Source: Betaproteobacteria bacterium (lineage in GTDB: Bacteria; Pseudomonadota; Gammaproteobacteria; Burkholderiales; SG8-41). Taken from it: DNA of 41,536 nt. This document shows, piece by piece, positions 823-23,956 of this stretch. A model generated the notes under the pieces. It was not told the DNA's origin. It made no database searches and saw nothing but the letters and a program-made list of their open reading frames with translations. Each line of letters opens with the position of its first letter. The stretch's first letter is position 1. The DNA lies in contig JANYDY010000116.1 in assembly GCA_025363435.1 (NCBI GenBank), forward strand, positions 1 through 41,536, in the 5' to 3' direction. The translations under genes were made by a program, and so were the position numbers.

Positions 823-1806
823 TCAATCGGTCGTGATACCCGTGCTTTTCACCACCGGCAGCCATTTTTTGTGCTCATCGGCGAGAAAATGCGCAAACGA
901 CTGCGAAGTTTCGGGCGCAGCCAGCGCGCCGTCGCGCGCCAGCATTTCGCCCACCGGCGGCGCTTTCAGCGCCTCCATAAGTTCGCGATGTAAACGCTCG
1001 ACAACCGCTTGCGGCGTGCCCGCGCGCAGCGAAAGCCCGTTCCAGATGATGTGTTCGTAACCACGCACGCCTGACTCGGCAATCGTCGGCGTCTGCGGCA
1101 GCAGCGGCCAGCGTTTCGCCGTGGTTACCGCAATCAGGCGCAGCCGACCCGCCTTGATATGGCTCAGTGACGACGTCGGGTTATTGAACGCGACCGAGGT
1201 CTCGCCGCTCAGCACCGAGATGGTCGCCATCGCACTGCCTTTGTAAGGAATATGCGTGAGCTTGACATCGGCGATCAGATTGAAAAGTTCGCCACCAAGA
1301 TGCGAGCCGCCGCCTAGCCCCGACGAACCGAAAGTGATTGCACCGGGGCGCGCCTTCGCCATCGCCACCAGATCCTTGACCTTGTAGACCGGCAGCGACG
1401 GGTGCACGATCAGCGCGCCCGGCGAAATGCCGACCCGGCTCAACGGCGTAAAATCGCGAAACGAATCGAAAGGCAGTCTGGTTTGCAGGATCTGCGCGAG
1501 ACTGAAATTGGTGCTGACAAGATAGAGCGTGTAACCATCGGCCGGCGCGCCGAGCACGATGTTGGAGGCGATGACCGAGCCGCCGCCGGGACGGTTGTCG
1601 ACGATGACCTGCTGCCCCAGCCGTTTGCCCAGTTCACTGGCGATGACGCGCGCCGCCGCGTCATTGCCGCCACCGGGCGCCAGCGGCACGATCAACCTGA
1701 TTGTGCGCTCCGGATAGGTTTGCGCAAAAGCGCCTGCTGCTGCGAGGGCCGCGACAAAAAACACCTTAGCAAACGCGCCTGCTCTACCGTATTTTCTAAA
1801 TGCCAC
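823..1806 (-). CDS. Bug/TctC family tripartite tricarboxylate transporter substrate-binding protein
   Basis: A periplasmic solute receptor of 327 aa, the usual length for the family, probably binding a carboxylated compound. Seen: a signal peptide ending AGAFAQ near residue 29, the mature start TYPERTIRLIVP, the ligand-loop motif PGGGNDAAAR, VDNRPGGGS, PADGYTL, and the HIPYKGSAMA segment. The start is a GTG at 1806; no ATG exists before the signal peptide. It overlaps the end of the SDR gene by 11 bp, which suggests translational coupling. The MmgE/PrpD gene follows after 26 bp. No TctA or TctB partner is nearby, so the membrane part must be elsewhere or absent. Confidence 0.93.
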   Translation of the reverse strand: MAFRKYGRAGAFAKVFFVAALAAAGAFAQTYPERTIRLIVPLAPGGGNDAAARVIASELGKRLGQQVIVDNRPGGGSVIASNIVLGAPADGYTLYLVSTNFSLAQILQTRLPFDSFRDFTPLSRVGISPGALIVHPSLPVYKVKDLVAMAKARPGAITFGSSGLGGGSHLGGELFNLIADVKLTHIPYKGSAMATISVLSGETSVAFNNPTSSLSHIKAGRLRLIAVTTAKRWPLLPQTPTIAESGVRGYEHIIWNGLSLRAGTPQAVVERLHRELMEALKAPPVGEMLARDGALAAPETSQSFAHFLADEHKKWLPVVKSTGITTD

Positions 1807-2590
1807 GCGTTCTGCCGCCGTCGACGTTGATTGCCGTACCGGTGATCATGCCGGCGCGCGCCGAAGCGAGAAACACCGCGAGGTCGGCAACGTCTTCCGG
1901 TTTGACGACGCGCCCCATCGGCACATCGGCGACGAGTTGCTTCTCCGCCTCCTGTTCTGAAATGCCGCGGTCGCGCGCAGCGACTTTGACGAGTTCGGTC
2001 CAGCGCCCGGTGTCGGTCGAACCGGGCGCAATGGCGTTAACGGTAATGCCGGCAGGCCCGAACTCATTGGCCATTGCCTTGGTGATGCTGAGCGTGCCGA
2101 GGTTGATCGGACCCGACATGACCTGCACGCCGTGCGGCTCGCGGCCGCGCGTGCCTGAAATATGGATAACGCGCCCCTGCGTCGATTTTTTGAGATAAGG
2201 CATAGTCTCGCGCGTCATGCGAATCAGCCCCAGCGGTTTGACCGCGAAATAGCTTTCCCACAACTCATCTGGAATATCGGCCAGCCTGCCGCGATACGCG
2301 CCGCCCGCGCAATTAACCAGTATGTCGACGCTGCCCAGCGCCTTGACGGCGGCGGCAACCGCGGGCTTGATCGCCACCGTGCCCTTCTCGAGATCGAGCG
2401 GAATCACCGCGATACGCAGCGCCGCATATTGTGCGCGTAAATCCGCCGCGACTTTTTCGCAGCGCTCGACATCGCGCCCGAACAGGCCGAGATTGACGCC
2501 GTGTGCTGCAAACGCCACCGCAATCGACCTGCCAATGCCGCGGCTCGCGCCCGTAATAAATGCAGTGCGTCCCTTGAGATCAAATTCCAT
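1796..2590 (-). CDS. SDR family protein with altered active site
   Basis: A Rossmann-fold short-chain dehydrogenase/reductase of 264 aa, starting at the ATG at 2590 (MEFDLKGRTAF). Seen: the cofactor motif TGASRGIG (13-20), NCAG (93-96), the catalytic-type Ser145 in HISG, and VNAIAPG (184-190). Two of the four classical catalytic residues appear changed. The place expected for Tyr in YxxxK reads LSITK (Leu167, Lys171), and the Asn of the helix-4 motif reads Lys118 (FAVKPLG). The spacing between Ser145 and Lys171 is also longer than usual. It may therefore be a divergent SDR with a different chemistry or a non-redox role. It lies between the hydroxyacid dehydrogenase (97 bp gap) and the Bug gene (11 bp overlap). 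A longer in-frame start would overlap the upstream gene and is not needed. Confidence 0.9.
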   Translation of the reverse strand: MEFDLKGRTAFITGASRGIGRSIAVAFAAHGVNLGLFGRDVERCEKVAADLRAQYAALRIAVIPLDLEKGTVAIKPAVAAAVKALGSVDILVNCAGGAYRGRLADIPDELWESYFAVKPLGLIRMTRETMPYLKKSTQGRVIHISGTRGREPHGVQVMSGPINLGTLSITKAMANEFGPAGITVNAIAPGSTDTGRWTELVKVAARDRGISEQEAEKQLVADVPMGRVVKPEDVADLAVFLASARAGMITGTAINVDGGRTRGI

Positions 2591-2687
2591 GGTGTGTTTT
2601 CCGAATTGATGAATCGGTTGAAAGTATTCTGCCGTCTGCGTGTATTTCTTCTGCCGACTGCGCGCGCCGGAAAACAATAAGCGCAGC

Positions 2688-3626
2688 CTAGGGCAGCGGA
2701 TTCGGCAGCGCTGCGCCTGAAAAATGCGCGCGCAGATTGGCCAGCACTTTGCGCTTGCGCTCTTCGCGTATCTCCAGCGTATGCGAACCGACATGCGGCG
2801 TCATCACCACATTGTCCAGCGCCAGCAATGCGGCCGGCACCTGCGGCTCGTCGCTAAACACGTCGAGCCCGGCGCCGGCAATGCGTTTTTCCGCCAGTGC
2901 GGCGATCAGCGCGTCCTGGTCGATGATGGGACCGCGCGCGACGTTGACCAGAAAGCCGTCGGTGCCGAGTGCATCGAGAACTTTGGCATCGATCAGATTG
3001 CGCGTTGCCGGCATCAACGGACAGGTCACCACTAGGCATTCGCTTTCACGCGCAAGACTCAGGACATCTTCGTGATACGGGTAGGCGACTGCCGGTTTAC
3101 GCCGCGGCCCCTGGTAACGAATCGTCATGCCGCAGGCGGCGGCGCGCTGCGCAACCGCAATGCCGATGTTGCCGAGACCGACAATGCCGCAGACCTTGCC
3201 GCGCACTTCGCGCCCAACCGGCGCCACCGTCGTCGGCCATTTGCCCGCGCGCACAAAACGATCGCACTCGCCAATGCGCCGCATCGAAGCAATCATCAAA
3301 CCGAGCGCCAGATCAGCAACGCCTTCGGAAATCGAATCCGGCGTATTTGTAACGGGAATACCGCGTTCGCGTGCCGGCGAGCGATCAAGCGTGGTGTTGC
3401 TGCCGAACAGCGCGATAATTTCGAGCTTCGGCAGCGCATCGAGCTGTGCTCGCGTAAAACCGGTAATGCCCGGCGTCACCAGCGCACGGATGCGCGGCCC
3501 GACTTCGGCAAGCATTTGCGCCGGGTCCGGCGCCTGCCACAATTTATGTACGACAAATTCGCGTTCGAGTTCGGCCACCGCAGGCGCATAAATTGCACGC
3601 GACAACAATAGTTCGGGTTTCGACAT
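2688..3626 (-). CDS. D-2-hydroxyacid dehydrogenase (NAD-binding)
   Basis: A cytoplasmic oxidoreductase of the D-isomer-specific 2-hydroxyacid dehydrogenase family, expected to interconvert a 2-hydroxy acid and a 2-keto acid with NAD(P). It has 312 aa, the usual length. Seen: the dinucleotide motif GLGNIG (150-155), Arg231 in NVARGPIID, Glu260 in DVFSDEP and His278 in TPHVGSHT, which together form the expected Arg-Glu-His active site. The start ATG is at 3626 and the upstream Bug stop lies 2 bp away, with an AAGGCG-type ribosome site inside that gene. The substrate is not predictable; glyoxylate/hydroxypyruvate reductase-like enzymes are the closest general type. The preceding receptor may import its substrate. 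Confidence 0.93.
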   Translation of the reverse strand: MSKPELLLSRAIYAPAVAELEREFVVHKLWQAPDPAQMLAEVGPRIRALVTPGITGFTRAQLDALPKLEIIALFGSNTTLDRSPARERGIPVTNTPDSISEGVADLALGLMIASMRRIGECDRFVRAGKWPTTVAPVGREVRGKVCGIVGLGNIGIAVAQRAAACGMTIRYQGPRRKPAVAYPYHEDVLSLARESECLVVTCPLMPATRNLIDAKVLDALGTDGFLVNVARGPIIDQDALIAALAEKRIAGAGLDVFSDEPQVPAALLALDNVVMTPHVGSHTLEIREERKRKVLANLRAHFSGAALPNPLP

Positions 3627-3628
3627 GT

Positions 3629-4597
3629 TTAATCGCCTTTGATGCCGGCTTCCTTGATGACTTTACCGAAACGCGTGGCCTCGCTCTGAATGAAGCGGCC
3701 GAACTCTTCGGGCGTGCTGGTCAGCGGTTCAACGCCGGCCTGCGCAAACCGCGGTTTCATATCGGGCGCCTGCACCGCCTTGATCAGCTCCGCATTCAAG
3801 CGAGTGATGATGTCGCGCGGCGTTCCGGTCGGCGCGAGTATGCCGTACCAAACGCTGATTTCGAAATTGGCGAAGCCCTGCTCCTTGGTCGTCGCAATGC
3901 CCGGATAATCAGCGAGCCGCTCGGGCGACAGCACTGCAATCGCACGCACGCGTTTGGATAGCACCTGACCGAGTGCAACCGGCGCCGCCACCACTTCCAT
4001 ATCGACCTGCCCGCTGGCAAGCCCGATCAACGCCAGCCCCGAGCCCTTGTAAGGCACATGCAGGATATCGATCTTCTCAAGGCTCTTCAGCAATTCAGGC
4101 GCCAGATGGGTGGTGGTGCCAATGCCACCGGAACCATAACTCAACCTGCCCGGTTGTTTGCGCGCGATCGCAATCAGTTCCTTGAGATCTTTCGCCGGCA
4201 CCGAAGGATGGACCACCAGCACGTTGCGCACCGCGCCGACCAGCGCAATCGGCGCCAGGTCCTTCCACGGATCGTAGTTGAGTTTGTTGTAGAGCAGCGG
4301 ACTCAAGGCGATCACCGGCGAACTCAGCACGATGGTGTAACCGTCCGCCGGCGACTTCGAGGCGATTTCAAGGCCGACGTTGCCGCTGGCCCCCGGGCGG
4401 CTGTCGGCCACCACCGACTGCCCGATCTGTTCCGACAATTTCTGCGCCACCAGACGGCCGACGATGTCGGTCGGCCCGCCTGGCGGAAACGGCATCACCA
4501 TACGTATCGCCTTCGACGGATACGTTTGCGCCATCGCAATACCGGCACCGAATATGAATGCCATTGCACCCGTTGCCGCGCGCTTACAAAATCTCAT
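3629..4597 (-). CDS. Bug/TctC family substrate-binding protein
   Basis: A periplasmic receptor of 322 aa. The signal peptide begins MRFCKRAATG and ends near IAMAQ, followed by TYPSKAIRMVMP. The family loop PPGGPTDIVGR, the variant ADSRPGASGN, PADGYTI, a GSGGIGTTTH stretch and HVPYKGSGLA are present. The start is uncertain: ATGs at 4603 and 4597 both follow the purine-rich AGAGGGG; the second gives better spacing (about 8 nt) and is used here. A TTG further upstream is not needed. It follows the cupin gene by some 40 bp and precedes the hydroxyacid dehydrogenase, so it is operonic with both. Ligand unknown. Confidence 0.92.
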   Translation of the reverse strand: MRFCKRAATGAMAFIFGAGIAMAQTYPSKAIRMVMPFPPGGPTDIVGRLVAQKLSEQIGQSVVADSRPGASGNVGLEIASKSPADGYTIVLSSPVIALSPLLYNKLNYDPWKDLAPIALVGAVRNVLVVHPSVPAKDLKELIAIARKQPGRLSYGSGGIGTTTHLAPELLKSLEKIDILHVPYKGSGLALIGLASGQVDMEVVAAPVALGQVLSKRVRAIAVLSPERLADYPGIATTKEQGFANFEISVWYGILAPTGTPRDIITRLNAELIKAVQAPDMKPRFAQAGVEPLTSTPEEFGRFIQSEATRFGKVIKEAGIKGD

Positions 4598-4644
4598 TGC
4601 CATATCCCCTCTCAATCCCGCATCCTGAATCCTGAATCCTGTTT

Positions 4645-5109
4645 CTAATAATGCGATTTGAAGCTGATCGCATCGCGGTAATGCAGGTCCTCAAGATCGA
4701 TGTAGGAGCGCTTGGTCTTTTTGTCGACGGTGTACTGGATCTTGCGGTTGGTTTCATTGGTGGCGCGAATATCCAGCAACTCAAGGTATTCCTTGACCTC
4801 CCACTCGTGCGCGCCGGCGATACCGGGCGGCGCATAGATCATCGAACCGGGGCCGACCTCGGTTTCCTTGCCGTTGAAATCGCGCACCGTCGCGTGACCG
4901 GCGATGACGTAGTAACAGGCCTCGATCGGATGCCAGTGCAGTTGTTCATAGGTGCCGGGCTTGTAAGTCGCGCGACCGAGACGCACGCGATCGGTCTGAT
5001 TGACTTCGGGCCAGCCGACCAGGCGCTGATAAGTCTGGCCGTCGGTAACGCCGCGCCGCCCCGGGCAGTCCGCCTGATTGAGAACTTGCAAGGTCGATTT
5101 GACTTCCAT
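4645..5109 (-). CDS. Cupin domain-containing protein
   Basis: A small single-domain beta-barrel protein of 154 aa. Seen: the first cupin motif around LHWHPIEACYYVIAG, giving His58, His60 and Glu63 as likely metal ligands, and the second motif around PPGIAGAHEWEV with His101. Cupins of this type are metal-dependent dioxygenases, isomerases or ligand sensors; which of these applies cannot be told. The start at 5109 is decided by a strong AGGAGGAG ribosome site 5 nt upstream; the longer in-frame extension has none. It is the first gene of the minus-strand operon that continues with a Bug receptor, and it is divergent from the Bug gene at 5263. No signal peptide is seen, so it is cytoplasmic. Confidence 0.9.
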   Translation of the reverse strand: MEVKSTLQVLNQADCPGRRGVTDGQTYQRLVGWPEVNQTDRVRLGRATYKPGTYEQLHWHPIEACYYVIAGHATVRDFNGKETEVGPGSMIYAPPGIAGAHEWEVKEYLELLDIRATNETNRKIQYTVDKKTKRSYIDLEDLHYRDAISFKSHY

Positions 5110-5111
5110 GT

Positions 5112-5119
5112 TTGCTCCT
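5112..5119 (-). promoter_or_regulatory. Strong ribosome binding site of the cupin gene
   Basis: The minus strand reads CAGGAGGAGCAAACATG, an almost complete anti-16S match about 5 nt before the ATG. It fixes the cupin start over the longer open frame. Confidence 0.8.
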
Positions 5120-5262
5120 CCTGATTTGAAATTAATGCACAAAACGAAGTGTAAACAAATCGTGCGCAGCGCGTGCAACTTGCCGCCGGCACAGCGAAAA
5201 TGATTTGACGTACGGGGCAAAGGTGACGGATTCTAACGCCCGGCAATACTGGGCGGACCCGC

Positions 5263-6303
5263 ATGAGCATCAGCATAAATCTGCACAACAACGTGAAGCA
5301 ATCCCGCGCGGGCGGCGACGCCGGCGCGCTGCTTGCGCGCAAAATGGCGACGATTTTGTTGTTTGCAGCCGTCACTCCGGCAACCGCAGCTGATAACGCG
5401 CCGGCATTTCCGGTGAAGCCGATCCGGTTGATTCTCGGTTATCCGCCGGGTGGTTCAAGCGACGCGGTAGCGCGCGTGCTGGCGCAGGCACTGTCTGCGC
5501 GCATGGGGCAGAACATCCTCATCGACAACCGGCCCGGCGCCGGCGGCAACATCGCTGCCGAAATCGTCGCGCGTGCCGCGCCCGATGGTTATACCTGGCT
5601 ACTCGGCAACAACGGCATCCTCGCCACCAATCAGGCGCTCTACCAGCGCCTGCCGTTCGATTCGCTGAAGGATTTCGCCACCGTCGCGCTGGTCGCCGCG
5701 CAACCGAGCGTGCTGATTGTCCATCCATCGCTGCCGGTGAAATCGGTACGCGAACTGATTGCACTGGCGAAAGCACGGCCGGGCCAGCTCAACTACGCCT
5801 CGTCGGGCACCGGCACCGCGGGCCACCTCGCCGGTGAATTGCTGAAGGGGCTGGCGAAAATAGATTTCGTACACATTCCCTACCGCGGCGGCGGACCGGC
5901 GCTGATCGATCTTCTCAGCGGTCAGATGCAATTCATGTTTGCGACAGCCGGCTCGGTCATGCCGCAAGTGCACAACGGGCGCCTGCGCGCACTCGCGGTG
6001 ACCTCGGAGAAACGTTCACCGACCCTGCCCGAATTGCCGACGGTGGCCGAAGCCGGGGTACCGACATTCGAAGCGATGACCTGGCACGGCATTGTTGCAC
6101 CGGCGGCAACGCCCCCGGCCATTGTTGAAAAATCGAATACCGAAATCAATGCAGCACTTGCCTCGCCGGAAGTACGCGAACGACTGGCAGCCCAGGGCGC
6201 CGAGCCGCAGCACGGCACGCCAGCGGAATTCGCCGCCTACCTCAGGCGTGAGATTCCGAAATGGACGAAAGTCGTGCGTGATTCCGGCGCGAAGCCTGAA
6301 TGA
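5263..6303 (+). CDS. Bug/TctC family substrate-binding protein
   Basis: A periplasmic receptor, 346 aa from the ATG at 5263. The N-terminus is longer than in its neighbours: about 25 residues precede the hydrophobic stretch MATILLFAAVTPATAA. An alternative ATG at 5344 would leave the signal peptide without its positive residues (ARK), so the upstream start is preferred, with doubt. Seen: PPGGSSDAVAR, IDNRPGAGGN, APDGYTW, SSGTGTAGHLAGE and HIPYRGGGPA. It is a single plus-strand gene, divergent from the cupin operon, with the 153 bp between them available for both promoters. The next gene, a secreted protein, follows after 84 bp. Confidence 0.92.
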   Translation: MSISINLHNNVKQSRAGGDAGALLARKMATILLFAAVTPATAADNAPAFPVKPIRLILGYPPGGSSDAVARVLAQALSARMGQNILIDNRPGAGGNIAAEIVARAAPDGYTWLLGNNGILATNQALYQRLPFDSLKDFATVALVAAQPSVLIVHPSLPVKSVRELIALAKARPGQLNYASSGTGTAGHLAGELLKGLAKIDFVHIPYRGGGPALIDLLSGQMQFMFATAGSVMPQVHNGRLRALAVTSEKRSPTLPELPTVAEAGVPTFEAMTWHGIVAPAATPPAIVEKSNTEINAALASPEVRERLAAQGAEPQHGTPAEFAAYLRREIPKWTKVVRDSGAKPE

Positions 6304-6387: not shown

Positions 6388-7080
6388 ATGAACAAGAATT
6401 CCAATCGCCTGCCAGCTCTGCAGACCACAGGCGCTTTGCTTTGCGCCCTTGCCTCTTCGTTCGCGTTTGCGCAAATGGGCGAATATCAGCCGCCGGGCCC
6501 GAACGACGGCACTGCTTTCACCAATCAGATCAATGTAAAGCCCAGCGCCAATAATGAGGTATATCTCAGCCTCAAAACGCGCTGCGAAACCGAAGTCGGC
6601 AGCGGCAAATCAAACGGCGATGTTTGCGCCGAAGCTGCGGCCATACTGCTCGGTAACGACGTGCCCGATCACCTGCGCGACATCTCCTCGGTGACCAAGA
6701 CGAAAATTGCCCTGCGCCTGCTCGAACGCGGCGTCGACAGCAGCAATCTCGCCGCGGCGCGCGCCTACGACATGTACAACAAAACCGATATTGGCGGCTT
6801 TCTCACCGGCGGTGTTGCCGACTCCTACCGCGCGGCGGAACTGATGGACGTCATGCTCAAGCGCAATTACGTCGGTGCCTCGCTGCGCAAATCGCGTTCA
6901 GCAGTTTCGCTTTTCTCGTTCAGCACGCCTGAATCGGAAAAACGCCAGCACTGCGATGTGGCCAAGCAGGCGATTGCCGGCGGCAAGCTCGACGCCGACA
7001 GTAAAATAGTTGCCGCAGACATCCTCGATAGCACGATCTGCAAAAACCTCGCCGCGCAAGCGCTGCAACAGCCGAACTGA
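6388..7080 (+). CDS. Secreted protein of unknown function, four cysteines
   Basis: I do not recognise a family. The product has 230 aa with a clear signal peptide (cleavage near SFAFA, residue 28). The mature part contains four cysteines (66, 80, 189, 218), which could form two disulfides in the periplasm. The middle (about 95-165) is Ala/Leu-rich and looks helical, with LLERGVDSSNLAAARAYDMY and YRAAELMDVMLKR segments that vaguely recall helical-repeat (TPR/Sel1-like) proteins; this is a weak resemblance. The start is set by GGAGG at 6379-6383, 4 nt before the ATG. It lies between a Bug gene and an aldo/keto reductase gene on the same strand. Base composition and codon use look like the neighbours. 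Confidence 0.85.
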   Translation: MNKNSNRLPALQTTGALLCALASSFAFAQMGEYQPPGPNDGTAFTNQINVKPSANNEVYLSLKTRCETEVGSGKSNGDVCAEAAAILLGNDVPDHLRDISSVTKTKIALRLLERGVDSSNLAAARAYDMYNKTDIGGFLTGGVADSYRAAELMDVMLKRNYVGASLRKSRSAVSLFSFSTPESEKRQHCDVAKQAIAGGKLDADSKIVAADILDSTICKNLAAQALQQPN

Positions 7081-7135
7081 TTTTGCCCCCCTGCTCCGCG
7101 CCGGCGCGCGGAGCATCCGCCTCAGGAGCACGCGC

Positions 7136-7960
7136 ATGATCCCCATGCTCACGGCGCATGGCGCCAGCATTCCGACTGTCGGTTTCGGCACCTCGCAACT
7201 CGGCGATTGCACGGACGTGGTCGCTGCCGCGCTGAAGCTCGGCTATCGTCACATCGACACCGCCTGGAAATACGGCTCCGAACAGGGCGTCGGCAACGGC
7301 ATCAAAAAATCCGGCGTACCGCGCAAAGACATTTTTTTAACGACCAAGGTTTCGCACGAATACCTGGGTGCCGCCGATTTTGCGCGTTCAGTCGAAGAGA
7401 GCCTGAGCCGCCTGCAAACTGATTACGTGGATCTGCTGCTGGTGCACTGGCCGACCATCGACAACATACCGCTTGCAGAAACCATGGGCGCACTGGCCAA
7501 AGCCAGGCGCGACGGTAAAACGCGTTTCATCGGTGTGGCGAACTTCAACATTGCTCTGCTCGACGAAGCGATGCGCCTGTGCCCCGAGCAATTTTCGGTG
7601 CTGCAGGCCGAGTACCATCCGTACCTTGATCAAACGAAAATGCTCGCGCATTGCCGCAGCAAAGGGTTGACCTTCATGGCCTATTGCCCGCTCGCGCGCG
7701 GCGGCATTTTCAAAGACCCGGTGCTCGCCGACATCGCGCGCGCCAAAGGCCGCAGCATCGCGCAGATTGCGTTGCGCTGGCTGATACAGCAGGATATTGT
7801 GGCGCCGATACCGCGTTCGGCCGATCCGAAGCATATGGCAGAGAGTCTGGCCGTATTCGATTTTGCGTTGAGCATTGAAGAAATGCAGCGCATATACGCG
7901 CTTAAACGCGCCGACGGGCGCATTGCCAATCCGGCCGGTCGCGCACCGGCGTGGGATTGA
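7136..7960 (+). CDS. Aldo/keto reductase
   Basis: A cytoplasmic NADPH-type oxidoreductase of 274 aa, the size of the 2,5-diketo-D-gluconate reductase-like group. Seen: the GFGTSQLG start of the barrel and the complete catalytic tetrad Asp41 (HIDTAWKYG), Tyr46, Lys71 (TTKV) and His104 (LVHWP). IPRSADPKH near the C-terminus is the usual cofactor-binding strand. The ATG at 7136 follows CAGGAG by about 7 nt; the longer frame overlaps nothing but has no ribosome site. It is followed after 40 bp by a Bug gene, so receptor and reductase are probably co-expressed. It would reduce a carbonyl compound; which one is unknown. Confidence 0.93.
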   Translation: MIPMLTAHGASIPTVGFGTSQLGDCTDVVAAALKLGYRHIDTAWKYGSEQGVGNGIKKSGVPRKDIFLTTKVSHEYLGAADFARSVEESLSRLQTDYVDLLLVHWPTIDNIPLAETMGALAKARRDGKTRFIGVANFNIALLDEAMRLCPEQFSVLQAEYHPYLDQTKMLAHCRSKGLTFMAYCPLARGGIFKDPVLADIARAKGRSIAQIALRWLIQQDIVAPIPRSADPKHMAESLAVFDFALSIEEMQRIYALKRADGRIANPAGRAPAWD

Positions 7961-8000
7961 AACACACATTCAGCGCGCCTTACCGCTCAAGGAGGCCGGC

Positions 8001-8987
8001 ATGAAAACACCGTTGCAGGCAAACTGCTGCGCAATTGCAGGTTTGGCCGCACTCTGCGCAGTCGCTGGCAATGCCGCATTTGCGCAGAGCGCGTTTCCGA
8101 CGCGCAACGTCCAGGTCATCGTGCCTTATCCGCCCGGCGGTTCTATCGACGTCATTACGCGCGCGGTGACAGTGCGGCTGGCCGAAATCTGGGGCCGCAA
8201 CGTGGTGGTCGACAACCGGCCCGGCGCCAGCGGCATGATCGGCACTGAAATCGCGATCCGCGCGGAGCCGGACGGGCACACGCTGCTCGGCCATACCTCG
8301 TCGTATCCGGCTACCGCCGCGGTGCGCGAAAAACTGCCGTTCGATCCGGCCCGCGCCATCGTGCCGGTCGGCATGTTTGCGCGCGCACCGATGATCCTCG
8401 CGGTCCATCCGTCGGTGCCGGCAAAAACCGTCAGGGAGCTAGTCGCACTGGCGAAAAAAAATCCCGGCACGCTCAACTATTCTTCGTCGGGCACCGGCGG
8501 CAACAACCATTTTTCCGGCGCCCTCTTCGCGGCGGCAGCCGGCGTCAAGATGACGCATATTCCATACAAGGGCATCGCACCCGCCGTCACCGCGCTGGCG
8601 GCCGGCGAAGTCGAACTCGTCATCGCCAGCGCTGCCGCAGTCAATCCGCAATTGCGCGCCAACCGCATTCGCGCGCTGGCGGTCACCAGTGCCGAACCGA
8701 CGTCGCTGCTGCCGGGCCTGCCGGCGATCGCGCAATCCGGCGTGCCCGGTTATACCTATGAATTGTGGTGGGGCATGTTTGCACCCGCCGGCATCAGCAG
8801 CGAGCGCGTCGGCGTCATCAACGCGGCGATCAACAAGGCTTTGGCAAGTCCGGAGATGAAAAAATTTCTCGACGGCGAAAGCGCCGAGGCCTGGGTGGTG
8901 CCGATGTCGCAGTTCGCCGAACTGCTGCCGAAGGAAATCGAGCGCTACAAAAAAGCTGCGGCGCTGGCCGGCGTCACGGCGCAATAA
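8001..8987 (+). CDS. Bug/TctC family substrate-binding protein
   Basis: A periplasmic receptor of 328 aa. The start at 8001 follows AAGGAGG (7989-7995). The signal peptide runs to about GNAAFAQ, then SAFPTRNVQVIVP. Seen: PPGGSIDVITR, VDNRPGASGM, EPDGHTL, SSSGTGGNNHFSG and HIPYKGIAPA. It lies 40 bp behind the aldo/keto reductase gene and is the last gene before the convergent terminator at 9001. Ligand unknown; no transporter membrane subunits are adjacent. Confidence 0.93.
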   Translation: MKTPLQANCCAIAGLAALCAVAGNAAFAQSAFPTRNVQVIVPYPPGGSIDVITRAVTVRLAEIWGRNVVVDNRPGASGMIGTEIAIRAEPDGHTLLGHTSSYPATAAVREKLPFDPARAIVPVGMFARAPMILAVHPSVPAKTVRELVALAKKNPGTLNYSSSGTGGNNHFSGALFAAAAGVKMTHIPYKGIAPAVTALAAGEVELVIASAAAVNPQLRANRIRALAVTSAEPTSLLPGLPAIAQSGVPGYTYELWWGMFAPAGISSERVGVINAAINKALASPEMKKFLDGESAEAWVVPMSQFAELLPKEIERYKKAAALAGVTAQ

Positions 8988-9051: not shown

Positions 9052-11256
9052 TCAAACCTGCTTCGCCGCCTTCAACGGTTCTGCACGCACCGGTTTGCCG
9101 GTCGCCGCGAAGATCGCGTTCATCACCGACGGCCGCACCACGCAAATAGTTGGTTCGCCGACGCCGCCCCAGAAATCGAAGGTCGGCACGACCACCGTTT
9201 CAATCTTCGGCATTTGCGCCAATTTCAGGACCGGATAGGTGTTGAAATTGTCCTGCACGATGCGACCGTTTTCGACGGTCAATTCCTCGAACAACAGTGC
9301 GCTCAACCCCATGACTGCCCCGCCCTCGACCTGCGCCGCGATCTGGTGCGGATTGACCGCATGGCCGCAGTTGACGCCGAGCACCATGCGGTGGACCGTC
9401 ACTTCACCTGCTGCATTTACAGAAACTTCCGCGGTCGCCGCCGAATAGCTGCCGTAGCCCATGAACTGCGCAATGCCGCGGAACACGCCGGCGGGTAATG
9501 GCTTACCCCAATCGCCCTTCTCGGCCACCGCGTTCAACACGCCGAGATGTTTCGGGAACTTGGCCATCATGCCACGCCGGAATTCGAGCGAATCGACGCC
9601 CGCCGCACGCGCGACCTCCTCGATGAAGCACTCCATGTAGAGGCCGTTCTGGTTGGTATTCACGCCACGCCACGCGCCGACCGGCACATGGGTATTGCGC
9701 ATCGCGTATTCAACCAGCAGGTTGGGCACGGCGTAACCGAGCTGGGCGTCACCGGGTTTGGAGTCATAACCCTGCAACTGGCGCGCGTCCTTGTAACCGT
9801 CGGGAATCGCCGCCGGGTTGACCCAGGCGTTGATCGACTGCCCCGAAACGCGCACATGCAGACCGACCAGCTTGTTGTTGGCATCGAGCCCCGCAGTCAG
9901 TTTGCACTGCGAAATCGGCCGGTAGAAGTCATGCGTCATGTCCTCTTCACGGCTCCAGATCATTTTCACCGGTGTGCCGGGGAACTGCTTGGCGATTTCG
10001 GCCGCCTGCCGGATGAAGTCCTGATTGCCGCCGCGGCGCCCGAAACCACCGCCCAGCACGTGTCTGTAGACTTCGCACTTCGCGAGCGGCAGGCCGGACT
10101 GTTCGGACAACGCCGCGAGTGACGCCTCGGCGTTCTGCGTGGCCGCCCACACCTCCGCCCTGTCCGCGGTGATGCGCGCCGTGCAGTTCATCGGCTCCAT
10201 CGTGATATGCGGAACGAACGGCGTGCGGTAGACAGCCTCGACCTTCTTGGCCGCCCCCTCAATCGCCTTTAACGCGTCGCCTTCGTTGCGGAACGCATAG
10301 ACGTTGGTCTGTGTGGTCAGGCCGTCCTTGAGACGCTCGGCGATGGTCGCGCTCGATTGCGCGGCATTGGGGCCTTCTTCCCAAACGATCGGCATTGCAT
10401 CAAGCGCTTTTTTCGCATGCCACCAGGTGTCGGCGACAACGGCGACGGTGAAGCCGTTGACCCTGACCGCGCGCTTGACGCCGGGCATGCCCGCGATTTT
10501 GTCGTTGTCGAAACTCACCAGCTTGCCGCCAAACACCGGGCAGGCCTTGATCGCAGCATTCAGCATGCCGGGCAGCTTGAGATCGATGGCGTAGACCAGC
10601 GAGCCGTCCAGACGGGTCTCGGTACCAATGCGCTTGAGCGGCTGGCCGGCGACTTTCCAGGTGCGCGGGTCCTTCAGCGTGATGCTCTTCGCATCCGGCG
10701 GCGTCAGTTTGGCCGCCGCGGTGGCGACCTTGCCATAGGTGGTCGAACGCTTCGAAGCGGCGTGGGTAATCACGCCATCGGCGACCGTCAGCTCTTCAAC
10801 CGGCACCTTCCATTGATCGGCCGCCGCCTGCAGAAGCATGAGCCGCGCGACCGCGCCGCCGCGCCGCACATAGTCTTCGGAAGTGCGGATACCGCGGCTG
10901 CCGCCGGTGCCCATTTCGCCCCACACGCGCTTGCGCGCGAGGTTTTCGCCAGGCGTGACAAACTCGGTGCGGATATTCTTCCAGCCACACTCGAGTTCTT
11001 CCGCCACCAGCTGGGCGAGACCGGTTTCAGTGCCCTGGCCCATTTCCGAACGCGCGATGCGGATAACACAGGTGTTGTTTGGCTTTACCACCACCCAGGC
11101 GTTGACCTCGGCGCCCGCGGCAGCCTTGGTCTCTGCAGCGCTGGCCGCAAACGGCATATTGAATCCGATGGCGAGGCCGCCACCCGCTGCTGCCGTGCCG
11201 ATAATGAATTTGCGGCGCGCGCTGTTCGCGACTGTCGATTTTTTGCGTGTCGTCAT
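9052..11256 (-). CDS. Xanthine dehydrogenase family, molybdopterin-binding large subunit (IorB-like)
   Basis: A molybdenum hydroxylase large subunit of 734 aa, of the type found in isoquinoline 1-oxidoreductase and related aldehyde or N-heterocycle oxidising enzymes. It is expected to hydroxylate a substrate with water and pass electrons to the [2Fe-2S] partner. Seen: a twin-arginine signal (ARRKFIIG, residues 13-20) followed by a hydrophobic stretch, so the complex is probably periplasmic. Also present are EMGQGTETG near 71, HVLGGGFGRRGG for cofactor binding, VGAWRGVN, and GVGEP near 698-702 with the probable catalytic Glu701. The start has a GGGGAG site. The small subunit gene ends 17 bp upstream. 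No third subunit (cytochrome c) is nearby. Substrate unknown. Confidence 0.93.
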   Translation of the reverse strand: MTTRKKSTVANSARRKFIIGTAAAGGGLAIGFNMPFAASAAETKAAAGAEVNAWVVVKPNNTCVIRIARSEMGQGTETGLAQLVAEELECGWKNIRTEFVTPGENLARKRVWGEMGTGGSRGIRTSEDYVRRGGAVARLMLLQAAADQWKVPVEELTVADGVITHAASKRSTTYGKVATAAAKLTPPDAKSITLKDPRTWKVAGQPLKRIGTETRLDGSLVYAIDLKLPGMLNAAIKACPVFGGKLVSFDNDKIAGMPGVKRAVRVNGFTVAVVADTWWHAKKALDAMPIVWEEGPNAAQSSATIAERLKDGLTTQTNVYAFRNEGDALKAIEGAAKKVEAVYRTPFVPHITMEPMNCTARITADRAEVWAATQNAEASLAALSEQSGLPLAKCEVYRHVLGGGFGRRGGNQDFIRQAAEIAKQFPGTPVKMIWSREEDMTHDFYRPISQCKLTAGLDANNKLVGLHVRVSGQSINAWVNPAAIPDGYKDARQLQGYDSKPGDAQLGYAVPNLLVEYAMRNTHVPVGAWRGVNTNQNGLYMECFIEEVARAAGVDSLEFRRGMMAKFPKHLGVLNAVAEKGDWGKPLPAGVFRGIAQFMGYGSYSAATAEVSVNAAGEVTVHRMVLGVNCGHAVNPHQIAAQVEGGAVMGLSALLFEELTVENGRIVQDNFNTYPVLKLAQMPKIETVVVPTFDFWGGVGEPTICVVRPSVMNAIFAATGKPVRAEPLKAAKQV

Positions 11257-11756: not shown

Positions 11757-11896
11757 GAACCCCTCCGTTGACTCGCCTTGATGGCAAGCATTATTGATTT
11801 GGACTGCCGGCGGCGCCGGGCGGCGTTGAAAACGCCCGCTGCCGGAGGCCATCATAGCGCATCCGCCGGCGGGTGTGCGCCCGTGAGAAGTCTCCG

Positions 11897-13273: not shown

Positions 13274-13406
13274 CGCCTGCTCCGCTTTGCATGAAGGCCG
13301 AAGCATAGCGTATCCGGGCAAATCACGGCACCAGTCAACGCCGGCAGAGCAGGAATTTCGCCGTCAAAAAACCGGGGGAATTACAAACGTTCACGCAGAT
13401 ATTGCG

Positions 13407-16830: not shown

Positions 16831-16854
16831 CTCAAATCCTTTTTACGACCGCAA

Positions 16855-19575: not shown

Positions 19576-19651
19576 GCGAACCCCGCGATCAGGGAATCAG
19601 GTGCGACGATTCTAGCAGCCCGTCAATAAAATTTATGTGCCACGTGTTCAG

Positions 19652-19681
19652 TTGTCGCATGCGACCCCCTGCGCCTACAAT
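19652..19681 (+). promoter_or_regulatory. Probable sigma70 promoter of the VOC-Bug pair
   Basis: TTGTCG (19652-19657) and TACAAT (19676-19681) are spaced 18 bp. The -10 matches five of six bases and the -35 four of six. The start codon of the VOC gene lies 49 bp downstream with a good ribosome site at 19716-19723. Confidence 0.5.
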
Positions 19682-19730
19682 GCATCACTACGCCCGCATC
19701 GACGGACGCTCATCCCGGAGGAGTATCACC

Positions 19731-20771
19731 ATGAATAGCTATCGTTCACTGGATCGTTCAATCCACGCGCCTGCTGCCGTCGACCGGCAGCGCCGGCGCC
19801 TGCTCACCGCCATCGGCAGCGCGGGTGCGACTGCCATGCTCGGCGGCTGCGCCACGCCCTGGCCCGCTGAGGAGTATCGCGGGCTGGCGCGCGCCACCGC
19901 CGTCAACCATCTGTCTTACGCAGTAACCGATTACAAACGCACGCGCGACTTTTACGTCGAACTGCTCGGCATGAAGGTGGCGTGGGATAACGGACGCATG
20001 TGCGCCGTCGAGTTCGGCGACCCGGCCAAACCCGAAGGCATCTATATCGTGCCGGTCAAACCGGGCGAAAAGGCTGCGGTCAGCCACATCGGCTGGTCGA
20101 TCGACAACTTCGTCGGCAACAAGGAAAAAATCGCTGCCGAATTAAAGCGCCAGAACATCAATTTCAAAGCTGATACGGAATGGGGCTGGACGCTGGATGA
20201 CCGCTCGGGCTACATGATTCATTTCATTTCCGAGACCGGCATCTTCCCCGGCGCTAGCGATCCCTGCGCCATCATTAACTCCGATAAATGCAAGGGCGCC
20301 GAAGCGGTCGGCCTGAAAAATCTCGCCAGCATGCCGAAACCCAGCGGCAACGGTTTCAAAGCCACTGCCTACAGCCACATTGTGCTGTGCGTCGATGACA
20401 TCGTAAAAACGCGCGACTGGTACCAGCAGATGTTCAGCATGAAACCGATCTACTACAAAGCCAACGAGCCGAATGCACAGGCCATGCTGCGTTTCGGCAA
20501 CAACACGCTGTATCTGCGCAACAGTAAACGGCCGGGCGGCAAACCTTATGTCGATCATTTCGCCTTTGAAATTGAAAACTACGATCAAAATCGCGTCGAA
20601 GCGGAATTGAAGCGCCGCGGCTACAACCCGCTGCCGGATTCAAAACTCGGCTGGACCATACAGGATCCCGAAGGCATGCGCATCGAGATCGCCGGCCGCG
20701 GCCTGCCTGAATATGTCGGGGAAAAATGCAACGGGCGCGCCACTGATTGCCCGGGCGGCCCTCGCGGCTGA
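19731..20771 (+). CDS. Tat-type lipoprotein with two VOC (glyoxalase-like) domains
   Basis: A 346 aa protein of the vicinal oxygen chelate superfamily, which includes glyoxalases and extradiol dioxygenases. Two similar modules are seen: first at about 57-155 (NHLSYAVTDYKRTRDFYVELLGM) and second from about 230 (YSHIVLCVDDIVKTRDWYQQMFSM). The N-terminus is unusual: RQRRRLLTAIG (19-29), a hydrophobic stretch, then LGGC with Cys40, together a twin-arginine signal with a lipobox. That would place a folded, perhaps metal-loaded VOC protein in the periplasm on a lipid anchor. The start at 19731 follows CGGAGGAG. A Bug receptor gene starts 8 bp after the stop, so the two are co-expressed. Confidence 0.88.
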   Translation: MNSYRSLDRSIHAPAAVDRQRRRLLTAIGSAGATAMLGGCATPWPAEEYRGLARATAVNHLSYAVTDYKRTRDFYVELLGMKVAWDNGRMCAVEFGDPAKPEGIYIVPVKPGEKAAVSHIGWSIDNFVGNKEKIAAELKRQNINFKADTEWGWTLDDRSGYMIHFISETGIFPGASDPCAIINSDKCKGAEAVGLKNLASMPKPSGNGFKATAYSHIVLCVDDIVKTRDWYQQMFSMKPIYYKANEPNAQAMLRFGNNTLYLRNSKRPGGKPYVDHFAFEIENYDQNRVEAELKRRGYNPLPDSKLGWTIQDPEGMRIEIAGRGLPEYVGEKCNGRATDCPGGPRG

Positions 20772-20778
20772 TCGACTG

Positions 20779-21744
20779 ATGGCGCGCAAAAACCTGCTCG
20801 CGGCGGCCGCCGCGCTTGCCATGGCCGCGGCGGCCAATGCGCAAACCTATCCGGCGAAACCGGTGCGCGTGATCCTGCCGTTTGCCGCCGGCGGCGGCCT
20901 CGATATCGTGCTGCGGCCGCTGCTGCAAAAAATGAGCGAAAGCGTGCAGCAGCAGTTTGTGATCGACATCCGCGCCGGCGCCAACGGCATCATCGGCACT
21001 GAAATCGGCGCCAAAGCGCCGGCCGACGGTTACACGCTGATCGGCGCCACCACCGGCACCATTACGATCAATCCGCATGTCTACGCCAAACTGCCGTTCG
21101 ACCCGGTGCGCGATCTGGTCCCGGTCAGCAATGTCGGCGCGACATCCTTCGTCATGGTGGTGCATCCGTCGCTCGCCGCGCGCAACGTACGCGAATTCAT
21201 CGCGCTGGCGAAAAAACATCCCGGCGAGCTCACCTACGGCTCACCCGGCATCGGCGGCACCAATCACCTTGCAGCGGAATATTTTCTGCAGCAGACCGGC
21301 ACGCGCCTGATCCACGTGCCGTACAAAGGCAGTCAGCCGCTGATCGCCGATCTGGTTGGCGGCCACGTCATCATGGGCTTCGACTCGATGATGGCAACCA
21401 TGCCGCAGGTGCGCGCCGGGCGCTTGCGCGCGATGGGTGTGGCCGCAGCAAAGCGTTCACCGGTAGCGCCGGAAGTGCCAACGCTGGCGGAAGCCGGCGG
21501 CCCCGAACTTGTCATCGGTTCCTGGTACGGGCTGCTCGCACCAGCGGGAACGCCACGCGAAATTCTGTTGAAGCTGCACACCGAAGTAACCAAAGCGCTG
21601 GCGATCCCCGAGTTGCGCGAACGCTATCGCACCACCGGACTCGAGCCGATCGGCAGCAGCTCCGAGCAATTCGCAATGGAAATCCGCGACGACACCGCGC
21701 GCTGGGGCAAGGTGGCGCGCACCGCCAACGTGCGTGCCGAATAA
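20779..21744 (+). CDS. Bug/TctC family substrate-binding protein
   Basis: A periplasmic receptor of 321 aa, starting at the ATG at 20779 (MARKNLLAAAAALAM), 8 bp after the VOC stop. An ATG at 20713 in the same frame would overlap the VOC gene and add a non-signal sequence. Seen: AAGGGLDIVLR, a strongly changed loop IDIRAGANGI where paralogs have NRPGA, PADGYTL, SPGIGGTNHLAAE and HVPYKGSQPL. The loop change suggests a different ligand or binding mode. It is coupled to the VOC lipoprotein, so receptor and enzyme may meet in the periplasm. Confidence 0.93.
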   Translation: MARKNLLAAAAALAMAAAANAQTYPAKPVRVILPFAAGGGLDIVLRPLLQKMSESVQQQFVIDIRAGANGIIGTEIGAKAPADGYTLIGATTGTITINPHVYAKLPFDPVRDLVPVSNVGATSFVMVVHPSLAARNVREFIALAKKHPGELTYGSPGIGGTNHLAAEYFLQQTGTRLIHVPYKGSQPLIADLVGGHVIMGFDSMMATMPQVRAGRLRAMGVAAAKRSPVAPEVPTLAEAGGPELVIGSWYGLLAPAGTPREILLKLHTEVTKALAIPELRERYRTTGLEPIGSSSEQFAMEIRDDTARWGKVARTANVRAE

Positions 21745-21754
21745 CTGTCGCCGG

Positions 21755-22006: not shown

Positions 22007-22981
22007 TCATTCAACCTTCAGTTTCAGTGCACGCACGATACGGCCGTTCTTCTGCATCTCGGTGCGGATGAAAGCGTCGAATTCGGCGGGCGTCATCGCA
22101 CCTGCGGTGAGCCCGACGCGTGCCAGCGCATCGTTCACCTCAGGCAGCTGCAACGCGCGGCCGATTTCGGCGCTGAGGCGTTCAATGCTCGCCTTCGGCG
22201 TGCCGGCGCGCACCATCGCGCCGAACCAGTTGGTCGCGTCGAAACCGGGATAACCCGACTCGGCGACGGTCGGCACCTGCGGTACTGCGGTCGAGCGCGC
22301 AATTGAAGTGACGGCTATCGCACGCGCGCGGCCCGACGGCAGATAAGGCGAACACTCGAGCACGTTGCCGACCAGCAGGCTGGTGTGGCCGCCGAGCAAG
22401 GCAACCGTCGCCGGCCCGCCGCCGCCGTATGGCACGTTGATCAACTCGATATTCGTTGCTTCGCGAAACAACTCGCCGGCAATACGGCCGCCGCCCAGTA
22501 TGCTCGCCACACCCCAGGTCAGCTCGCGCGGCCGCGCCCGCGCCAGTGCAACGAGCTCCTTCACCGTGCGCGCCGGCAGCGATGGATGCGCGCAGATGAT
22601 CAGCGGGTTGTAGGCAACGCGGCTGACGCCGTTGAGATCATTGAGCGAATCGTACGGCAGCCCGGCATGCGCTGACGGATTGACGGTAAAACTCGTCGCC
22701 ATCAAGAGCAGCGTGTTGCCGTCCGGCGCGGCGCGCACCACTGCCTCTGTGCCGATTACGGTGTTGGCGCCCGGCCGGTTGTCGATGACGATGCTCTGTG
22801 CGAGCGCGCGGTTGAGCGGCGCCGACAGCGCGCGCGCCAGCGTGTCGACTGCGCCGCCGGGCGGAAACGGTACTACCACGCGCAGCGGCCTGCTGTCCTG
22901 CGCAAACACGGTCAGCGGCGTCGACGCCGCCAACGCCCACAACAAAACCAAAACAAATCTGATAGGGCTAAAGTTATTCAT
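22007..22981 (-). CDS. Bug/TctC family substrate-binding protein (second of tandem pair)
   Basis: A periplasmic receptor of 324 aa, with a signal peptide ending near TVFAQDSR and then PLRVVVPFPPGG. Seen: PGGAVDTLAR, IDNRPGANTV, APDGNTL and NVPYGGGGPA (Gly in place of the usual Lys after NVPY). It starts 6 bp behind the stop of another Bug gene and they form the only directly adjacent receptor pair here. The two sequences are clearly different, so this is not a fresh duplication. Confidence 0.92.
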   Translation of the reverse strand: MNNFSPIRFVLVLLWALAASTPLTVFAQDSRPLRVVVPFPPGGAVDTLARALSAPLNRALAQSIVIDNRPGANTVIGTEAVVRAAPDGNTLLLMATSFTVNPSAHAGLPYDSLNDLNGVSRVAYNPLIICAHPSLPARTVKELVALARARPRELTWGVASILGGGRIAGELFREATNIELINVPYGGGGPATVALLGGHTSLLVGNVLECSPYLPSGRARAIAVTSIARSTAVPQVPTVAESGYPGFDATNWFGAMVRAGTPKASIERLSAEIGRALQLPEVNDALARVGLTAGAMTPAEFDAFIRTEMQKNGRIVRALKLKVE

Positions 22982-22987
22982 CTGTAA

Positions 22988-23956
22988 CTACTCTGCTTTC
23001 GCACCCGTGGCCTTCAACACCTTGCCACGTATGGCGATCTCGTTGCGCACCATTTGATCGAATTCCTCCGGCGTAGACGGCCGTGCAGTCGCACCCTGGC
23101 TGGCGAGTTTTTCGCTGATCTCCGGCAGGCGCAGAATACGGCCGACTTCCTGCGCCAGTTTGTTGATGACCACGCGCGGCGTGCGTGCCGGGGCGATCAA
23201 TCCGTACCAGCCGTCGTAGTGAAACCCCGGCAGCGCCGCCTCCGCCACCGTTGGCACTTCGGAAAGCGCCGCCAGACGGTCACGCGTGGTGATCGCTAGC
23301 GCCTGCAGGCGGCTGCTCCTGACCAGCGGAATCGCCGGCACCACCGAGGTGACGACAAACTGGATGCGTCCGGCAATCGCGTCGTTGAGCGCTTCGGGCG
23401 TGCCTTTGTACGGAACGTGCACGACATTAATGCCGGCCGCCAGTTTGAAAAACTCGCCGCCGACATGCGTGCCGCTGCCGATGCCCGACGAACCGAAGTT
23501 GATTTGTCCGGGCTTCTGCTGCGCCAGCGCGATCAGATCACGCAGGGATTTCATCCCGAGCGACGGTGCGGTCGCTATCAGCATCGGCGTGCTGCCGACC
23601 TGTGTAACGCCGGCAAAGTCTCTCAGGGTGTCGTACGGCAGATCGGGATAAAGTGCGGCGCTGCCGGCGAATACGGAGGATGCCAGCAATAGCGTGTGGC
23701 CATCGGCGGGGGCGGCGGCAACAATGCCGCCGGCCACCGTGCCGCCCGCACTCGGCCGGTTATCAATGACTACCGGCTGCCCCCAGCTCTCGACCAGTCG
23801 CGGCCCGATCAGCCGCGCCACCACGTCGGTCGCGCTGCCGGGCGTGAACGGCACCACCATGCGGATCGGCTTGTTTGGATAGGCCTGCGCAAAAGCGCCG
23901 CTGCCGGCCAGCGCAAACACCATGGCCAGCGCAATCCCAGCTACCGTCTGCCGCAT
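22988..23956 (-). CDS. Bug/TctC family substrate-binding protein (first of tandem pair)
   Basis: A periplasmic receptor of 322 aa. The ATG at 23956 follows GGGAGGAG closely; the longer frame to 24115 would run into the enolase-superfamily gene and adds an Arg-rich non-signal stretch. The signal peptide is MRQTVAGIALAM to about GAFAQ, then AYPNKPIRMVVP. Seen: TPGSATDVVAR (Ser in place of Gly), IDNRPSAGGT, PADGHTL, SSGIGSGTHVGGE and HVPYKGTPEA. It lies 55 bp behind the MR/MLE enzyme gene and 6 bp before the next receptor, forming an enzyme-receptor-receptor unit. Confidence 0.93.
   Translation of the reverse strand: MRQTVAGIALAMVFALAGSGAFAQAYPNKPIRMVVPFTPGSATDVVARLIGPRLVESWGQPVVIDNRPSAGGTVAGGIVAAAPADGHTLLLASSVFAGSAALYPDLPYDTLRDFAGVTQVGSTPMLIATAPSLGMKSLRDLIALAQQKPGQINFGSSGIGSGTHVGGEFFKLAAGINVVHVPYKGTPEALNDAIAGRIQFVVTSVVPAIPLVRSSRLQALAITTRDRLAALSEVPTVAEAALPGFHYDGWYGLIAPARTPRVVINKLAQEVGRILRLPEISEKLASQGATARPSTPEEFDQMVRNEIAIRGKVLKATGAKAE

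Follow-up and report, generated by a model that had tools for sequence, protein, structure and literature searches.

Eight TctC/Bug receptor genes beside a ribosomal gene region as a local sample of a genome-wide receptor expansion in a Burkholderiales lineage

Receptors of the Bug family, the TctC components of the tripartite tricarboxylate transporters (TTT, TC 2.A.80), exceed their permeases in Bordetella, Cupriavidus, Achromobacter and other genera, with 52–214 TctC against 1–8 TctA given for beta-proteobacteria (PMC5812351, Table 3). The highest published number found is that of Rhodoplanes sp. Z2-YC6860, with 434 TctC in 8.2 Mb (53 per Mb, 6.2% of genes); 294 of these are single genes and some form arrays, 9 lie in complete TTT operons and 355 have export signals (PMC5994714). 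The idea of a shared permease is already in print as a hypothesis (PMC5994714, PMC5812351). The terephthalate uptake system TphC-TpiBA of Comamonas, with its receptor in a catabolic operon and its permease in another (PMC8556258), is a working precedent for such a separation. Here, eight TctC/Bug receptor genes on contig JANYDY010000116.1 of a Betaproteobacteria bacterium (assembly GCA_025363435.1; Burkholderiales, SG8-41) are compared with these systems. They are a local sample of a genome-wide TctC hyper-expansion and no local oddity, and are read, with a probability of about 0.62, as ligand-specific carboxylate collectors feeding a few shared TctAB permeases.

Receptor and permease numbers

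The window analysed is the entire contig of 41,536 bases (C114 of 118) from a genome of 2.97 Mb in 118 contigs (G000; completeness 91.7%, estimated contamination 0.87%). Both contig ends truncate a gene, tuf at the right and an MmgE/PrpD gene at the left. A first-pass annotation of this DNA had described eight full-length TctC/Bug receptors on both strands with no TctA or TctB near them, and both statements were borne out. All eight open reading frames (ORFs) matched PF03401 with 202–258 bits (cut-off 27) over 267–273 of the 274 profile positions, while neither TctA nor TctB, and so no complete TTT transporter, was found among the 30 window ORFs scanned. The receptors thus have protein family and orphan status in common with the Bug receptors of Bordetella, Cupriavidus and Achromobacter. 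They are as follows, with gene starts and ends taken partly from a home-made gene caller and partly from ORF ends:

T1, 823..1806, minus strand: TctC/Bug receptor (PF03401 204.7 bits; pocket string VSGANI), 26 bp upstream of the truncated MmgE/PrpD gene
T2, 3629..4615, minus strand: TctC/Bug receptor (PF03401 235.5 bits), with a cupin gene on one side and a 2-hydroxyacid dehydrogenase gene on the other
T3, 5263..6303, plus strand: TctC/Bug receptor (PF03401 258.3 bits)
T4, 7875..8987, plus strand: TctC/Bug receptor (PF03401 203.4 bits), with a start nearer 8043 by the gene caller
T5, 13797..14804, minus strand: TctC/Bug receptor (PF03401 235.7 bits)
T6, 20713..21744, plus strand: TctC/Bug receptor (PF03401 245.7 bits), likely start 20779, 7 bp past a glyoxalase-family gene
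T7, 22007..22981, minus strand: TctC/Bug receptor (PF03401 202.2 bits), lying 6 bp downstream from T8 when measured between ORF ends
T8, 22988..24115, minus strand: TctC/Bug receptor (PF03401 208 bits), likely start 23956, as in the first-pass annotation

A PF03401 search of the whole genome gave at least 150 TctC (150 of 266 first-look candidates were scored, all 150 far above the cut-off), which is an underestimate as only four of the eight window receptors are in that list. In 19 systematic stretches (290 kb) of the genome, 27 full TctC were present, corresponding to 93 per Mb (bootstrap 50–140) or approximately 277 genome-wide, and by two estimates the genome carries about 270 TctC in its 2.97 Mb. 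With partial genes included, TctC made up 29 of 271 genes called (10.7%), and 22 of the 25 TctC runs in these stretches were of a single gene. Six-frame searches of the whole genome, which answer the proposal to look for tctAB elsewhere, detected three TctA and three TctB, paired, on contigs C85, C43 and C46, all of them other than the window; TctC thus stands far above TctA (at least 150 against 3). The density of receptors beside ribosomal operons had been considered unusual, which did not hold. Other contigs of the genome are equally dense, with nine listed TctC within 22.4 kb of contig C98, and a density special to the ribosomal neighbourhood was rejected. A hydrophobic stretch was present before the mature start in all eight window receptors (best 10-residue mean 2.11–2.91) and in 190 of 198 TctC ORFs. 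Among interior pieces the figure was 54 of 198, and 35 further TctC ORFs were too short upstream to be judged.

The comparison was extended to 74 genomes of the source family, 41 of which have a completeness of at least 90% and a contamination of at most 5%. All 74 carry first-look TctC candidates, from 64 to at least 996 each (median 272), with 24 above the 434 of Rhodoplanes; not all of these candidates were scored (28 per genome across the family) and the top counts of 995 and 996 are guessed to be lower bounds. The 41 good-quality genomes hold from 67 to at least 995 candidates, with matches in all. Sampling of three relatives gave 102 full TctC in 656 kb of G004, 92 in 595 kb of G077 (two draws pooled) and 54 in 278 kb of G018, which extrapolate to 886 (631–1,154), 943 (697–1,198) and 1,245 (869–1,636), respectively. 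It should be noted that the two draws of G077 differed: the first had 53 full TctC in 283 kb and the second 39 in 312 kb, and the second by itself gives 762 (438–1,107). The share of TctC among called genes, partials included, was 111 of 538 (20.6%) in G004, 60 of 241 (24.9%) in G018 and 96 of 547 (17.6%) in G077, with contamination estimated at 2%, 7% and 3%, respectively. Set against the 52–214 TctC of the Bordetella type, the source genome thus holds around 270 in 2.97 Mb and these relatives, by extrapolation, around 890–1,250 in 5.7–6.4 Mb. As in Rhodoplanes, the receptors are dispersed over the genome, mostly single and for the most part provided with export signals; unlike Rhodoplanes, the source lineage reaches 93–195 TctC per Mb and 10.7–24.9% of called genes.

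The number of TctC candidates rises with genome size (rho 0.85), with a log-log slope of 2.0 in the 74 genomes and 2.3 in the 41; since the species are related, p values of correlations across genomes are indicative only. TctA, at 1–18 per genome, shows no such rise and correlates weakly and negatively with TctC (rho −0.24 in the 74 genomes, −0.51 in the 41), and G004 holds around 330 first-look TctC candidates per TctA. Of 300 genomes drawn from the order, 133 had a TctC match, and the top counts outside the source family were 576, 454 and 447 candidates. Two further families reach 426–576 candidates (G338 and G309 of family f13, G127 and G210 of family f6), so very large expansions are not limited to one family. 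Twelve TctC ORFs were also seen in 21 kb of contig L043 (JAQGMI010000125.1), among them the orthologue of T2 with an adjoining cupin gene.

The first-pass annotation was correct in calling Bug expansion known in Burkholderiales (PMC5812351, Table 3), although the scale in the source lineage was understated. A limited search of openly licensed papers found none on the TctC expansion of this lineage, its scale, or a co-expansion of PrpD; MmgE and tripartite tricarboxylate occur together in two papers. Orphan TctC/Bug expansion as such is of an already known kind.

Kinship, selection and ligand pocket

The receptors are diverged paralogues. Among 72 sampled TctC of the source genome, the nearest sampled paralogue had a median identity of 49.8% and a maximum of 62.1% (matches of fewer than 220 model positions and identical copies were dropped), and the best pair within the window was 49.5% identical. 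The window receptors were scattered over a tree built from 75 TctC of the source genome, requiring 8 changes against a shuffled mean of 7.7. A recent tandem array was rejected on these grounds, in agreement with the first-pass annotation. The tree that it had proposed as a check for one recent clade gave a divided answer, with the eight scattered while the approximately unbiased test did not reject a single clade for them (p 0.234), the deep tree being poorly resolved. The latter result weighs against the statement that no recent tandem duplication took place. In a tree of 232 receptors from four genomes the genomes were mixed (88 changes against a minimum of 3 and a shuffled mean of 113.2), and for this reason much of the expansion seems to be older than the split of the four. 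G004 required 42 changes against 74.9 when shuffled, which points to added growth in that genome.

Orthologues were found in fetched relatives for five of the eight receptors (T2, T4, T6, T7 and T8; 68–86% identical), the best matches of the other three being 41–48% identical. That of T2 (83%) lies in L043, that of T4 (68%) in L056 and that of T6 (86–89%) in L073, while L038 holds syntenic orthologues of T7 (84%) and T8 (70–71%). The order conserved on L038 is rpsD, rpoA, DUF488, a mandelate racemase / muconate lactonizing enzyme family gene (MLE), T8, T7, a metallo-beta-lactamase-fold gene, a fumarylacetoacetase gene, PrpD, CoxS and CoxL; T6, the glyoxalase, a hydrolase, DsbA and a true T5 are missing there. 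L039 keeps rpoA and MLE and has no TctC in its 21 kb. Public metagenome-assembled genomes titled Chitinophaga pinensis or Bordetella parapertussis (L037, L038, L051, L063) carry close relatives of window genes, with MLE 92% identical in L037 and rpoA 97% in L038, and their species labels look doubtful. The ratio of nonsynonymous to synonymous substitution rates (dN/dS) was 0.08–0.22 for the five receptors with orthologues (rough values, at dS 1.0–1.65) and 0.10–0.11 for two pairs of T7 and T8 orthologues between relatives at dS 0.22–0.26. The receptors are under purifying selection.

Different ligands had been proposed in the first-pass annotation from the variation of a five-letter motif, taken as the ligand loop. 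Its letters were read correctly for T2 (SRPGA), T5 (NRLGA), T6 (IRAGA), T8 (NRPSA) and for T3, T4 and T7 (NRPGA), but T1 reads NRPGG. The role assigned to the motif was rejected, as N59 and R60 are among the least variable positions in 233 aligned paralogues (3rd and 2nd percentile), which marks a conserved frame motif. The published ligand motif is PFxAGGxxD together with the b7-a7 turn, P, G, G and D being very conserved (PMC5812351). All four of these letters are present in six of the eight receptors, with T3 lacking P and T8 the second G; every letter is matched in T5 and T6 only. The turn of T7 reads NVPYGG where HVPYKG is usual, and with H and K gone its grip on the carboxylate may differ.

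The published contacts of TphC with terephthalate (PMC8556258) were placed on the alignment by means of a solved terephthalate-binding protein, which has identical residues at positions 86, 150, 155, 177, 178, 179, 194, 197 and 242; the best solved relative of T3 is the terephthalate-binding protein 8hka (E 3.6e-77). Contacts of the frame (G33, G34, D37, K177 and G178) lie at the 1st to 11th percentile of variability (233 rows), whereas the range is the 64th to 98th for the side-chain contacts 86, 150, 155, 194, 197 and 242 (52nd to 99th within the source genome). The six letters at the latter positions form a pocket string that was distinct in 287 of 289 receptors, where random sets of six columns averaged 236 (1 of 500 as high).

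Pocket variability by itself could reflect drift. For 25 orthologue groups, the identity between orthologues was set against that with the nearest paralogues, and the 285 columns were ranked by the difference. At an overall identity of 75%, the least similar orthologue pairs had 133 of their 150 pocket letters in common, a level reached by 21 of 2000 random sets of columns; the nearest paralogues kept 26% at 50% overall identity. Contacts 242, 155, 86, 150, 197 and 194 ranked 1, 3, 6, 12, 22 and 24 (Mann-Whitney p 3.9e-5), the first three columns being 242, 156 and 155. A slightly different choice of paralogues gave contact ranks of 1, 3, 6, 14, 17 and 24. The result was slightly weaker but held when the orthologue pairs were limited to 16 of low identity (mean 67%) and set against the 102 closest paralogues (mean 59%), with ranks of 1, 3, 17, 7, 34 and 56 (p 1.0e-4), and when the groups were limited to the 14 with a member in the four sampled genomes (p 1.3e-4). 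Since orthologues retain the letters at the TphC contact positions while paralogues differ there, it is most probable that the receptors have different ligands; the earlier proposal is thus supported, by this pattern and not by NRPGA variation. The best solved relative of T8 is Bug27 of Bordetella pertussis (2qpq, E 8.1e-68), from which T8 is too distant to inherit the quinolinate ligand (Bug27/Bug69: PMC11452294).

Gene neighbourhood

The other genes of the window that adjoin the receptors or bound their region are:

1..796, minus strand: MmgE/PrpD family gene, truncated by the contig end (PrpD profile match; NCBIfam PrpD matches below cut-off)
1796..2590, minus strand: short-chain dehydrogenase (SDR; PF13561/PF00106), on the same strand as T1 and T2
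2688..3626, minus strand: D-2-hydroxyacid dehydrogenase (PF02826/PF00389), following T2 at a distance of 2 bp according to the ORF ends and of 50 bp with the gene-caller start
4645..5220, minus strand: cupin protein, upstream of T2 (PF07883)
7010..7960, plus strand: aldo/keto reductase, upstream of T4 (PF00248)
9052..11256, minus strand: molybdenum hydroxylase large subunit (PF20256/PF02738)
11274..11855, minus strand: 2Fe-2S subunit adjoining the large subunit (PF01799/PF00111)
11897..13321, minus strand: full-length MmgE/PrpD protein, downstream of T5 (PF03972 210.9 bits, PF19305 122.8 bits)
19635..20771, plus strand: glyoxalase/dioxygenase superfamily protein, upstream of T6 (PF00903)
24012..25109, minus strand: MLE family protein, upstream of T8 (PF13378/PF02746)
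26193..41536, minus strand: ribosomal region with rpoA, rpsD and further genes to the truncated tuf (rpoA, rpsD and EF-Tu by Pfam; most genes between known from the gene list only)

On the minus strand the order is cupin, T2, 2-hydroxyacid dehydrogenase, SDR, T1 and MmgE/PrpD, and further along T5, MmgE/PrpD and the molybdenum hydroxylase pair, with this second of the two MmgE/PrpD genes detected by PrpD profile search lying 475–523 bp downstream of T5 depending on the start chosen. Six of the eight receptors have a same-strand gene other than TctC within 100 bp. Between T5 and T6, at 15517–17892, a fumarylacetoacetase (NCBIfam 533 bits, cut-off 375) adjoins a metallo-beta-lactamase-fold protein. 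The NCBIfam model that the latter matches best, though below cut-off, describes a SoxH-related zinc metallohydrolase from a quinoprotein relay system.

Pfam scans covered 110 of 131 close same-strand neighbours of TctC, 120 of 122 other neighbours (two very long proteins omitted) and 110 of 473 genes far from TctC; 25 families were listed for each neighbour set, down to two members, and far genes down to single members. The listed neighbour families are mainly enzymes. MmgE/PrpD comes first, accounting for 18 of the 110 close neighbours on the same strand, 19 of the 120 others and at most one of the 110 far genes. The neighbours thus differ from those described for Rhodoplanes, where transcription factors and ABC genes are found; in the source lineage MmgE/PrpD and other enzymes come first. 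Capsule synthesis proteins (PGA_cap) were also seen, at 5 of 120 outer neighbours.

MmgE/PrpD (PF03972) is itself expanded, with 32 first-look candidates (27 matches) in the source genome and 285 candidates in G004, and it follows TctC across the 74 genomes with a rho of 0.86, or 0.60 once size ranks are removed. First-look candidates also number 140 in G043, 133 in G009, 114 in G017, 108 in G018 and 105 in G077 (at most 31 scored per genome). Known MmgE/PrpD substrates have a common C4-dicarboxylate core, and methylsuccinate isomerase uses the free acid and not the CoA ester (PMC12290011). Free C4-dicarboxylic acids are what a TctC receptor could deliver, and C4-dicarboxylates are a likely kind of TctC ligand; for T1 and T5, which are linked to MmgE/PrpD, ligands with such a core are predicted. 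The receptors linked to MmgE/PrpD do not represent one ligand clade, an idea rejected as the 46 labelled among 232 receptors required 38 changes against 42.1 when shuffled (17 of 500 as low).

Of the 253 neighbours within 500 bp, 7 had four or more predicted membrane segments; of the 473 genes distant from TctC, 51 did. Because polytopic membrane proteins are scarce beside TctC, private neighbouring permeases are not the rule, and a private permease beside each receptor was rejected as such.

Proposed mechanism and rival explanations

It is proposed that each exported receptor would keep a common carboxylate-gripping frame with a side-chain pocket of its own, held by selection, and would most likely capture a different small carboxylate. 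The adjoining catabolic enzymes (MmgE/PrpD, dehydrogenases, molybdenum hydroxylase and others) presumably process the acids captured, and the loaded receptors most likely pass their ligands to the few shared TctAB permeases, since there is no private permease next door. This scheme builds on calculated family identity, export signals, purifying selection, pocket divergence, neighbour types and TctAB scarcity, and presumes what the ligands are, that the genes are expressed and that many receptors dock on one TctAB. The likeness to TphC lies in the family, the pocket frame and a receptor encoded apart from its permease; TphC differs in being a single receptor with a demonstrated ligand.

Several points weigh against such shared collectors. 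The sharing of TctAB is argued from a want of alternatives, and no solved relative of TctA was found by sequence with the one TctA query used. The adjacency of MmgE/PrpD is moderately above chance (29 of 62 against a permuted mean of 20.7, 8 of 2000 as high), in a set with 48 of its 62 members from one genome. Operon linkage is not general, as a same-strand gene less than 100 bp away is no more frequent for TctC (20 of 29, 62 of 111, 33 of 60 and 36 of 55 in G000, G004, G018 and G077, respectively) than for other genes (171 of 242, 270 of 427, 113 of 181 and 136 of 202). Position 30, a contact described for TphC as a conserved aromatic, varies among the present receptors (72nd percentile), and the orthologue groups are few, 11 of the 25 having no member in the four sampled genomes. 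In addition, both the gene caller and the signal test were home-made.

Scaling with the square of genome size is typical of regulators, and the slopes of 2.0 and 2.3 found for TctC would suit receptors partnered with regulators. Such partnerships would also agree with the transcription factors near 70 of 434 TctC in Rhodoplanes and near 64.1% of 154 in Ralstonia eutropha (PMC5994714). No kinase, response regulator or transcription-factor family was present among the 25 families listed for the 110 or for the 120 neighbours, which are mainly enzymes; this covers families of more than two members, so that smaller families or their sums could escape, with 23 of the 253 neighbours outside the scan. 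Regulator partners are considered improbable. Slightly less probable again is that the receptors work with permeases of other classes (ABC, TRAP or MFS), nearby or in trans. ABC genes lie near 41 and TRAP genes near 8 of the Rhodoplanes TctC (PMC5994714), and the outer neighbours here include MFS_1 (3 of 120), MFS_1_like (2 of 120) and SBP_bac_11, another binding-protein family (2 of 120). The depletion of membrane proteins beside TctC speaks against this, and none of the neighbour families listed is a TRAP or ABC permease family, a result for nearby genes in lists down to two members.

Extreme copy numbers, with many copies that have no closely linked gene, could also be expected if the receptors were periplasmic stores, chaperones or buffers of loose, redundant specificity whose genes grew in number almost neutrally. 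Purifying selection and the pocket letters kept in orthologues (133 of 150) and changed in nearest paralogues (26% kept) make this quite unlikely. Least probable of all, and hardly to be entertained, is an artefact of assembly or binning that gathered receptors of many organisms into one bin. The genomes are fragmented (118 contigs in the source genome) and are probably metagenome bins, with contamination estimates of 0.87–7%. However, rpoA and further ribosomal-region genes lie on one contig together with the eight TctC, the arrangement rpoA-MLE-T8-T7 is repeated on contig L038 of a relative, and matches are carried by every one of the 41 good-quality genomes.

A more far-reaching reading is put forward tentatively, with the odds against it. 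It would give this uncultivated family the largest non-mobile gene-family expansion known in a prokaryote, with some 900 or more TctC in some members (nearly one gene in five), 3–11 TctA and MmgE/PrpD co-expanded. Pairs of a private pocket and a private isomerase/dehydratase would then form a plug-in uptake-and-entry system for the many branched and substituted succinates that occur in dissolved organic matter, with a near-universal TctAB hub on which all would dock.

The excess of Bug receptors over permeases has been a standing question since the Bordetella genomes, and with around 330 candidates per TctA in G004 the idea of a shared permease becomes testable in its sharpest form. The pocket analysis provides a short residue code by which hundreds of receptors could be sorted, and the linkage with MmgE/PrpD suggests substituted succinates as one ligand class. 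If the counts hold in a closed genome, the published mark would be exceeded about twofold, in a smaller genome.

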